Source: Cokeromyces recurvatus
Lineage: Eukaryota; Mucoromycota; Mucoromycetes; Mucorales; Mucoraceae
Reading direction: 5' to 3'
DNA length: 64,000 bases
Assembly (NCBI RefSeq): GCF_025118155.1
Contig: NW_026251428.1
Location: 124,001-188,000, forward strand
In this document: positions 36,603 through 40,670 of the stretch, piece after piece
Numbering within the stretch: the first letter of the stretch is position 1
Layout: each line of letters starts with the position of its first letter
Notes under the pieces: generated by a model
Told to the model about the DNA's origin: nothing
Databases searched by the model: none
What the model saw: only the letters and a program-made list of their open reading frames with translations
Made by a program: the position numbers and the translations under genes

Positions 36603-37340
36603 ATGATTCCTAAAAAAATTATTCAAACAACAACAGATGATAGAAAAATAATATTTGCATATAAAAAACCACCTCCTCATACAAACATTATTCTTTGTTT
36701 CATACCAGGATTTAAATCTGATTTCATTACTTCAAAAAAGGCACAAGTTGTCTACAATTTAGCAGAAGAACTCAAGGTTGGATTCTTGTCTTGGAATCAT
36801 CATCAAGACATGACATCAGTGGTAGACTGGTATCGAGATGGGGTATCATTATTATGTAATGATTACGACTATTATTTGATTGGCGCAAGTATGGGATTAT
36901 GGATATCACTTTTAATTGCTACTACAACGAAAAGGATAAGAGGTATTGTAGGTATTGGGGGTAGTATTGATTTCACTGAGAGATGGCTATCAGAGGAAGC
37001 ACCGAGTCATGATGCCAATGTGATATGGAAAAGGCCAAGTGAATATGCAGTAGAAGGATATTATGAAATACCCGTTTCATTTCTATTAAATTCTAGACCT
37101 GCATTATTATTACAAGGAGAAGAAGATATGATTGTCATTCCTTGTCCGATCTATTTAATACATGGTGAACAAGACAAGGACGTAAGATTTGAAGAAGCTA
37201 AAGAGTTTGCCAATCATTTGTTAAAAGGCAGAAATCATGTTTATTTTTATCAAGTGAAAGACGGTGATCATAGACTTTCTAAATCTTCTGATTTAGATTA
37301 TATTCGTCACAAATTACTAGAAATAATAAAAAAACAATAA
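36603..37340 (+). CDS. Alpha/beta hydrolase, ABHD10-like
   Basis: A single-exon serine hydrolase of 245 residues. The nucleophile elbow is LIGASMGLW, the acid is in IYLIHGEQDKDVRFEEA and the histidine in VKDGDHRLSK. The block FIPGFKSDFITSKKAQVVYN and WKRPSEYAVEGYYEIPVSFL resemble ABHD10, a mitochondrial acyl-protein thioesterase/esterase in animals. The frame stays open upstream to 36468, but that part reads through poly(A) and poly(T) leader DNA, so I take the ATG at 36603. Confidence 0.85.
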   Translation: MIPKKIIQTTTDDRKIIFAYKKPPPHTNIILCFIPGFKSDFITSKKAQVVYNLAEELKVGFLSWNHHQDMTSVVDWYRDGVSLLCNDYDYYLIGASMGLWISLLIATTTKRIRGIVGIGGSIDFTERWLSEEAPSHDANVIWKRPSEYAVEGYYEIPVSFLLNSRPALLLQGEEDMIVIPCPIYLIHGEQDKDVRFEEAKEFANHLLKGRNHVYFYQVKDGDHRLSKSSDLDYIRHKLLEIIKKQ

Positions 37341-38267: not shown

Positions 38268-38472
38268 ATGTGGCAAGAAGCAAAGGCCAATGACAAAAGA
38301 GTACTAATCACAAAAGACATATATATTTGTTTATTTACCTAAATAATAAAGTAAAAAAAAAAAATGAATTATATTTTATCCTGTTAAAAATTACTAGATT
38401 CGTGAATTGATGGCAGATCATCGAAAAAGGGCTGAAAGAAGACGCGCCTATTATGAATCAAAAGTAAAAGGA

Positions 38473-38509
<37 letters not shown>

Positions 38510-39298
38510 CGTATATAGTTTACTAAATTTGCTATTTATTAGCTTGGTGATCCTCAACAATTAATTCGTGTCATTGGTTCTTCATCCAAATTATATCCTG
38601 ATGCTGAACAGTTTTATTATCATGAGAATCCTGATAATCTGTAAAGTATACAATTCAATTATAATGTTATACATGTTTATTTATCATCATCAAATAGCAT
38701 GCCTTGGCAAGGGAATCCAGATATTAAAATTGATCGGTAAAAAAATAAATAAATATTACCTAACAGACAGTCAATAAACTGATTTCCTTCATGTATAGTT
38801 TTGATGGTCGATCTTTATTAGATTACATACCCGATTCAACTAAAAATAGCTATCAAGATTTCTCTAAAGATGATAAAGAAATATCAGATGAATTAAACTT
38901 TGAAAGATATCATGATCTAATAGAAGCAGAACGATTAAATGGTATGTACAAGCATACTATATATTTTACTATGTCTTTTTTTCTTTCTTTCTTTCTAATC
39001 ACTTTTCGCTATATAGTAAGTGAGACGGAAAGATTGGCGGAAGTAGAAGAAGAATGGACAAAGTTATTAGATCGACACCAAGCAAAGCTTGCTTTACTTA
39101 AAAATCAAGAGTAAGTACGAAATTAGATATGCATTATGTATAGTTAATAAACTTAACATGAATCTATAATAGGAGAACACATAGTAAGAACCATACATTT
39201 GGTTATGATTATGGTACAGGAAAAGTAAATAATGAAGATCTTTATCAAGATAATCATGACGAAAAAGCATCTAGATTGCTTAAAGATATCCTTTAAAT

Positions 39299-39337
<39 letters not shown>

Positions 39338-40670
39338 ATCTATATCTATACATATGAATATCCTTAACTGCTTCTTTTCTCTCTTTTTTTTAAAATATCT
39401 ACAAGTCGATATTTTACAGTATGTAGATGATTTAACTGATAAAGATAAACAGATTTTGAATGAAATGTCGGGAAAATATGGTATTCGCAGTTATGCTCGA
39501 CTCTTACGTCTTGCAAAAAAAGATCGTGATGATGAACTACGATCATTAAAACGGCAACAAGAAGAAGGGAAACCAAAGGATGGACTTAGTAAGAGTGAGA
39601 GACGAAAGAGGAGACGAAGAAGAAGAAGAAGACATAGAAGAAGAAGAAGTAGAAGTAGAGAGGATAACGATCATTCTTATAGACGTCGCCATAGTCCAAC
39701 GTATGAACCTTATTATAATCAGGACGATGAATCAGGCTCATCTTATAGTTCATGGGATGATTCAGATGATGATGATGATGATTCTAATCATAGTGATTCT
39801 TCCTCTGATAATGCTATTGAGTTTGGATCAACAAGTACACCTGAAGAACATATCATGGATCGACCACAAAAAGAAGAAGAAGAAATAAAAAAGAATAAAT
39901 CAGTGGAAGTATTGAAATCAGTTCCTACTATAGAAAGGAAATTAACGCCTATGGAAAAATTAAAATTAAAGATGAGAGAAGGTTTAGAGAAACAAATTGT
40001 ATCTGATGAAAGAGACAGGAGAAGAAAAGAAAGAGAAAAAGAAATAGAGCAATTACAAGAATTGGCAAAAAGTCAGGGACTTCCCATCGATGCTTATTTA
40101 CGACCTGAACCACCGACACGAGAAAGGATTGAAAAGGAAGAAGAGAAAGAAGATAGAAAAAGATATTATTCGCCCTCTTCTTCAGATAATGAAGAAGAAG
40201 AAAAGAAACTGAATAATGATAAAAAAGGATATGACTCATCATCGTCTAATGAAATGAAGGAGAGTAGAAAAAGATATCATTCACCTTCATCATCATCTGA
40301 AAAGGGAACAGAAGAAGATTCCACAAAAAATAAAAGGCGATATAGATCTCCCTCAACAAGCAGGAGTCGAAGTAGAGATAATGATGGGAAGAATAAAAGA
40401 GAAAGATATAGATCCCCTTCAACTGATTCTGATGATAATAGAAGAAAGGAACGAAAAAGGGACGTTTCTTATAAACGATATACATCACCTTCAACAAGTA
40501 ATAGGAAATATACATCGTCAAGGAATAGTAGTAGATCCTATTCATCTAGAAATCATAGTAGTAGAAAAGAAAGTGATTATAGGCGATATAAGCAACGATC
40601 AAGATCCCCTTCACCACCAAGAAAAAGTAGACATAGTAGTTATTCACGTTATAGATCACCTTCTTTTTAG
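38268..40670 (+). CDS. CLASRP/SWAP-family SR-rich splicing factor
   Basis: Homologue of CLASRP (CLK4-associating SR protein, suppressor-of-white-apricot N-domain). Exons: 38268-38300, 38398-38463, 38543-38640, 38698-38736, 38799-38941, 39017-39110, 39173-39285 and 39403-40670. The first exon encodes only 11 residues, MWQEAKANDKR, and joins IRELMADHRKRAERRRAYYE, exactly as the family needs. Next come MPWQGNPDIKIDRFDGR and LDYIP. The C-terminal half has RRHSPTYEPYYN, LTPMEKLKLKMREGLEKQI and long RS/SR repeats. The intron at 39286-39402 appears to be U12-type (AT..AC). An SR-protein splicing regulator with a minor intron could itself be controlled by minor splicing efficiency; that is inference. 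Confidence 0.9.
39286..39402 (+). other. Probable U12-type AT-AC intron in CLASRP homologue
   Basis: The 5' end is ATATCCTTT, the exact minor-spliceosome consensus. A TCCTTAAC branch-site match lies at 39361-39368, and the intron can end at TCTAC (39402) or CTACAAG (39405); both keep the frame. No GT donor in the preceding exon end gives an open join: the frame runs into TAA at 39294-39296. Confidence 0.8.

Follow-up and report, generated by a model that had tools for sequence, protein, structure and literature searches.

A probable U12-type AT-AC intron in a CLASRP-family gene of Cokeromyces recurvatus

Positions 39286–39402 of a 64-kb stretch of genomic DNA from the Mucorales fungus Cokeromyces recurvatus (the whole stretch is referred to as the window) very probably constitute a U12-type AT-AC intron that ends with the AC at 39402 and lies in a gene of the CLASRP family. 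An intron of this type had been proposed at this site from an earlier reading of the DNA, and the proposal stands: the 5′ splice site and the branch site are exact, the segment ends in AC, the reading frame is open across the splice, and homology extends over the junction. We infer from these features that the segment is spliced. A simple model would suggest that U11 and U11-48K recognize AUAUCCUUU at the 5′ site, that U12 pairs with UCCUUAAC and leaves one branch adenosine unpaired, and that U6atac then takes the place of U11 at the 5′ site. The AC at 39402, 35 nt past the second branch-site A and preceded by no other AC or AG after the branch site, would serve as the 3′ end, presumably selected by scanning, and splicing would join LLK to EVDILQYVDDL.

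Gene model and intron signals

The gene was modeled at 38268–40670 on the forward strand with eight coding exons and seven introns, of which the first six are GT-AG introns of 57–97 nt and the seventh is the 117-nt AT-AC intron (Table 1). Joining 39285 to 39403 produces an open frame of 617 amino acids and reads LLK-EVDILQYVDDL across the splice, whereas an unspliced transcript would run into an in-frame TAA at 39294–39296, the stop that the original prediction had described. The protein carries an N-terminal DRY_EERY domain (PF09750, E 8.8e-34). In Mucorales, related proteins are annotated as "alternative splicing regulator"; relatives from some animals are called CLK4-associating serine/arginine rich protein, and a match bearing the latter name (e.g., P0057) reaches an E value of 8.8e-30. 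The domain and the homology to animal CLASRP assign the gene, as judged from its sequence, to the CLASRP family, in keeping with the earlier identification of a CLASRP/SWAP gene in a fungal host.

Table 1. Modeled exons, the predicted intron and its splicing signals, in window coordinates.
Feature	Position	Strand	Basis or remark
Exon 1	38268..38300	+	Gene model; ATG at 38268; absent from P0004, which is fused to the upstream gene
Exon 2	38398..38463	+	Gene model; matches P0004
Exon 3	38543..38640	+	Gene model; matches P0004
Exon 4	38698..38736	+	Gene model; matches P0004
Exon 5	38799..38941	+	Gene model; matches P0004
Exon 6	39017..39110	+	Gene model; matches P0004
Exon 7	39173..39285	+	3′ end CTTAAAG; codon split after its first base (phase 1); gene model, matches P0004
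Predicted U12-type AT-AC intron, 117 nt	39286..39402	+	Sequence, frame, homologue alignment, pattern versus shuffles
Putative U12-type 5′ splice site ATATCCTTT	39286..39294	+	Exact consensus RTATCCTTT; predicted duplex with U11 5′ end
Putative U12-type branch site TCCTTAAC	39361..39368	+	Exact consensus TCCTTRAC; predicted duplex with this genome's U12
Putative 3′ splice site TAC	39400..39402	+	First AC or AG past branch site; two residues from LLK to DIL in homologues
Exon 8, EVDILQYVDDL and RS-rich tail, stop codon included	39403..40670	+	Open frame, gene model

The public Cokeromyces recurvatus protein P0004 is identical to modeled exons 2–7 over 184 of 184 residues. After exon 7, P0004 continues with DIL and then ends, which corresponds to reading into ATATCCTT, inside the U12-type intron; the DIL is spelled by GATATCCTT, the origin of the ending of the public model in the window. 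The intron itself is absent from the public annotation, and public gene models of several related molds also break at it. P0004 as a whole (window 36603–37316 and 38392–39296) is a fusion of an upstream hydrolase gene with CLASRP, in which exon 1 is missing and translation ends within the U12-type intron.

The exon end CTTAAAG, ATATCCTTT, TCCTTAAC, and the intron end TCTAC could be read directly where they had been placed. Taken singly, the motifs are not significant in a window of 69% A+T over 64 kb, with RTATCCTTT found 5 times against 2.85 expected and TCCTTRAC found 5 times against 3.70 expected. The ordered pattern TATCCTT..TCCTTRAC..YAC occurs at a single place in the window, the CLASRP intron, and in 1 of 100 shuffles (mean 0.01), a comparison that was not blind because the pattern was composed after the site was known. 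The predicted duplex of ATATCCTTT with the U11 5′ end has an energy of −5.2 kcal/mol (10 of 1000 shuffles equally good), and that of TCCTTAAC with U12 has −9.8 kcal/mol (13 of 1000). The intron ends 35 nt past the second branch-site A, after a spacer that is 81% pyrimidine.

A weaker branch-like sequence, TTTTTTAAA, had also been reported near the 3′ end; it is present there, although at 39386–39394, one base later than given. It would lie at a normal distance from the intron end, and a similar stretch, TTCTTAAAA, is found near the end of an LSM12-like intron. It is nevertheless unlikely to be the true branch point. Its pairing with U12 amounts to −2.0 kcal/mol, which 896 of 1000 shuffles equaled, against the value of TCCTTAAC given above. 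Long spacing also occurs elsewhere in this genome without a nearer branch: in the AT-AC introns of an importin-like gene (L005, 22 nt) and a channel gene (L028, 30 nt), no nearer branch is possible because the spacers contain no A before the final TAC. With TCCTTAAC as the preferred branch site, the branch adenosine would be 39366 or 39367.

Choice of the 3′ end and conservation in homologues

Whereas TCTAC finishes at 39402, an AAG finishes at 39405, and the same U12-type intron could in principle end there as an AT-AG intron, giving LLK-VDILQ. As originally noted, and as borne out in the gene model, this end also keeps the frame open and shortens the protein by one residue, and some U12-type introns can be AT-AG. 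Comparison with homologues makes the AG end very improbable. Two residues separate the LLK-like from the DIL-like motif in 32 of 73 homologous protein models, which are by themselves no proof of AT-AC introns in their genes, and a single residue separates them in 0 of 73; the AC end is favored over the AG end for this reason. In addition, AT-AG is termed disfavored in excerpts of one review of the subject (PMC3584512), and all 12 accepted AT-starting introns of this genome end in AC, although their ends were partly picked by eye.

The read-through that terminates P0004 has counterparts in other species. At the exon 7 junction, 8 of 73 homologous models, representing seven genera of Mucorales, contain LL[KR]DIL, which G|ATATCCTT would spell (Cokeromyces recurvatus, Mucor mucedo, Benjaminiella poitrasii, Apophysomyces sp., A. 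ossiformis, Phycomyces blakesleeanus, Thamnidium elegans, and Backusella circina), a signature that is strong but indirect, since it is seen in protein models only and other codons can also spell D-I-L. Three models (Mucor saturninus, Phycomyces, and A. ossiformis) contain LQ[VT]DIL, which corresponds to the translated intron end CTAC|AR and is resembled by YLQVDIL in the window's own open frame. Rhizopus models mostly have LIY where others have LLK. Because the LL[KR]DIL read-through recurs in eight models of seven genera, the AT-AC intron is probably old in Mucorales, a conclusion drawn from protein models rather than from their DNA.

That the U12-like motifs arose by chance and that a major-spliceosome GT-AG (or other) intron is used instead, for example from a GT near 39216–39227 to the AG at 39405 or 39418, is scarcely credible. 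GT and AG dinucleotides do lie close by, and in a genome this rich in A+T a motif pair taken alone is often noise (26 places, compared with 12 for its mirror). Such an intron would, however, cut away the last residues of exon 7, which many Mucorales homologues retain (ending LLK), the public model also keeps exon 7 up to LLK, and the LL[KR]DIL read-through in seven genera would be left unexplained.

Minor-spliceosome RNAs and proteins in the genome

A genome lacking all minor-spliceosome components would be hard to reconcile with a U12-type intron, and a genome-wide search of the kind originally suggested returned four minor snRNA genes or candidates and two relatives of U11/U12 proteins. Candidates for U11, U12, U4atac, and U6atac each lie at a single place, and each is the best Rfam match of its locus. 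U11, which begins AAAAAGGGC, scores 68.8 bits, and U6atac, which contains AAAGGAGAGAA, scores 63 bits, both above the Rfam cut-offs. The U4atac candidate (52.3 bits) falls 0.7 below its cut-off of 53 and the U12 candidate (44.3 bits) 8.7 below its cut-off of 53; both are full length with key elements, the U12 candidate including AUGAGUAAGGA and the Sm site AAUUUUUG. Excerpts of a paper on Lichtheimia describe the third stem of U12 as reduced and its last stem as short in all basal fungi (PMC4133162), and by analogy these reduced stems may explain the low U12 score here. The predicted U4atac/U6atac duplex is strong, at −35.9 kcal/mol, and none of 200 shuffles equaled it. The U6atac/5′ site duplex (102 of 1000 shuffles equally good) and the U12/U6atac duplex (145 of 1000) are not significant alone.

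Among proteins, a U11-48K relative matches the solved chain 8r7n_F (E 4.2e-8) and, more weakly, Gametocyte-specific factor 1, and a 25K relative matches chain 8r7n_B (E 5.2e-17). The zf-U11-48K family also matched one control, Sulfolobus acidocaldarius, and we therefore rely on the match to the solved U11-48K chain instead. The CENATAC profile (PF14968) matched neither this genome nor any of the 14 controls, and the SCNM1 zinc finger gave one partial match (18.9 bits against a cut-off of 27).

The branch-pairing element of the U12 candidate (L001 1501–1658, minus strand) has GAGUAAGGAU in place of the GGAA of the Rfam consensus, and the base 5′ of TCCTTAAC in the CLASRP intron is A. Co-evolution of U12 and the branch site, looked for in the 15 accepted introns plus L038, was not shown and is at most a lead: the branch site is preceded by A in 9 of these 16 introns and in 18 of 41 sites used as background (p 0.56), and by TA in 8 of the 16 and 9 of the 41 (p 0.054).

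Branch-to-end distances in this genome and in known systems

The original prediction had regarded the 35-nt distance as an odd point, yet long distances recur in other U12-type introns of this genome. Across the 28-Mb assembly, TATCCTT and TCCTTRAC occur in that order with 16–76 bases between them at 26 places, compared with 12 for the mirror pattern, and with 77–137 bases at 13 places against 6; relaxed patterns gave 50 places against 14 for AT and 15 against 9 for GT. By this comparison roughly half of the strict motif pairs are noise, so that the decision has to come from frame and homology; both support the CLASRP intron. The strict patterns comprised 39 places, of which 23 were translated, with L033, L036, L039, L040, L041, and L043 left out of the splicing analysis. 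In the relaxed AT set, 20 of the 50 places had no given locus (5 of these were already in the set, 3 were added, and 12 were left out), and for both relaxed patterns all given loci were scanned. L038 was dropped for lack of an assigned family, L009, L019, L031, and L035 were left out of the accepted set, and the remainder were judged by eye not to be introns.

Fifteen U12-type introns were accepted genome-wide (12 AT-AC and 3 GT-AG), namely the CLASRP intron and 14 others. Counted from the second branch-site A to the final base of the intron, their distances are 11, 12, 12, 13, 13, 17, 19, 22, 22, 27, 30, 35, 37, 40, and 53 nt, so that 8 of 15 exceed 20 nt; the spacers are often pyrimidine-rich. 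A Pfam profile, a solved-structure sequence, or a homologue alignment crosses the junction in 12 of 15, including all eight above 20 nt. Acceptance of L022 and L030, in which the Pfam match stops short of the junction, depends on the reading frame, and that of L090 on a TBC match below threshold (E 0.0054). Gap-free alignment to solved chains across the junction is seen for DCP2 (13 nt) and for prefoldin 3 (53 nt, GT-AG); the channel gene aligns to the NALCN chain 7cu3_A, likewise continuous at the junction, with one gap about ten residues upstream.

Alternative ends were scored in five genes, one each. The 27-nt end of a DNA-PKcs-like gene scores 59.5 bits against 52.3 for a 9-nt end (the DNA-PKcs-like piece found no match among solved structures), and the AC end of VPS11 scores 55.1 against 44.1 for the AG end. 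Scores were nearly equal for LSM12 (36.2 and 35.3 bits) and a CDC24-like gene (62.1 and 61.8 bits), and the DRY_EERY domain of CLASRP falls short of the junction. The end is the sole AC or AG past the branch site in 10 of 15 introns; in L007, L013, L022, and L032, one earlier AC or AG, 4–8 nt past the branch motif, is skipped, and in L023 an AC three bases upstream of the AG is skipped. This distribution fits a scan from the branch site that passes over the nearest bases, with the ends having been chosen in knowledge of the frame.

Two genes with WAC (Acf1-type) domains, L034 and L054, carry a GT-AG U12-type intron at a matching place and in the same phase, with junctions TNEIFTDY^S and TNEVFTNY^E, as if duplication followed intron gain. 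The L028 gene, with its AT-AC U12-type intron and 30-nt spacer, encodes an NALCN/Cch1-like channel. In the candidate L031, ATATCCTTT and TCCTTAAC are followed by CT repeats and a run of more than 30 T before any AG or AC.

More generally, we regard it as an evenly balanced proposition that the minor spliceosome of this fungus tolerates or uses long pyrimidine-rich stretches, of more than 20 and up to 53 nt, between branch and end, in a hybrid arrangement that couples a minor branch site to a major-like 3′ end; animal-type tight spacing would then be no general property. If RNA confirms the long spacers, the minor-spliceosome distance rule becomes testable in a natural system. Intron surveys derived from annotation can overlook such introns, as the public Cokeromyces model illustrates; intronIC is described in excerpts as taking introns from annotation (PMC7367187). 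The longest spacers would be missed by published branch scans because these, according to passages of the respective papers, stop at −40 (PMC2846911, PMC6717393). The intronIC scan reaches −55.

Minor introns are known in Mucorales, those of Rhizopus and Phycomyces from long-standing reports (excerpts of PMC2846911), and the CLASRP intron adds one more. For a genome of the Mucorales, the present data contribute an AT-AC intron with good support, together with a candidate for each of the four minor snRNAs. A literature search found no published report of the CLASRP intron as minor or U12-type, and the partial texts that it returned say nothing about how far branch site and end lie apart in the minor introns of fungi. 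According to published excerpts, minor introns number about 4 in Rhizopus oryzae, about 20 in Phycomyces blakesleeanus, and 205 in Rhizophagus irregularis (PMC10639083, PMC2846911); these are, like Cokeromyces, Mucoromycota with minor snRNAs and few minor introns, although the species and the gene differ. In Lichtheimia corymbifera, also of the Mucorales, four of five AT-AC splicing RNAs are reported in an excerpted source (PMC4133162), with U4atac undetected, whereas the genome analyzed here has the U4atac candidate described above.

The features that define U12-type introns, in excerpts of PMC3584512, are the 5′ site and the branch site. The CLASRP intron shares these with the U12-type AT-AC introns of animals and plants, together with the AT-AC ends, phase 1, and U11, U12, U4atac, and U6atac. 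It departs from them in typical but not defining features: the same excerpts give an optimal branch-to-end distance of 11–13 nt, and U12-type introns are reportedly without a pyrimidine tract (PMC3584512, PMC2846911), in contrast to the longer, pyrimidine-rich spacer found here. Long branch-to-end spacers could be a new property of fungal minor introns.
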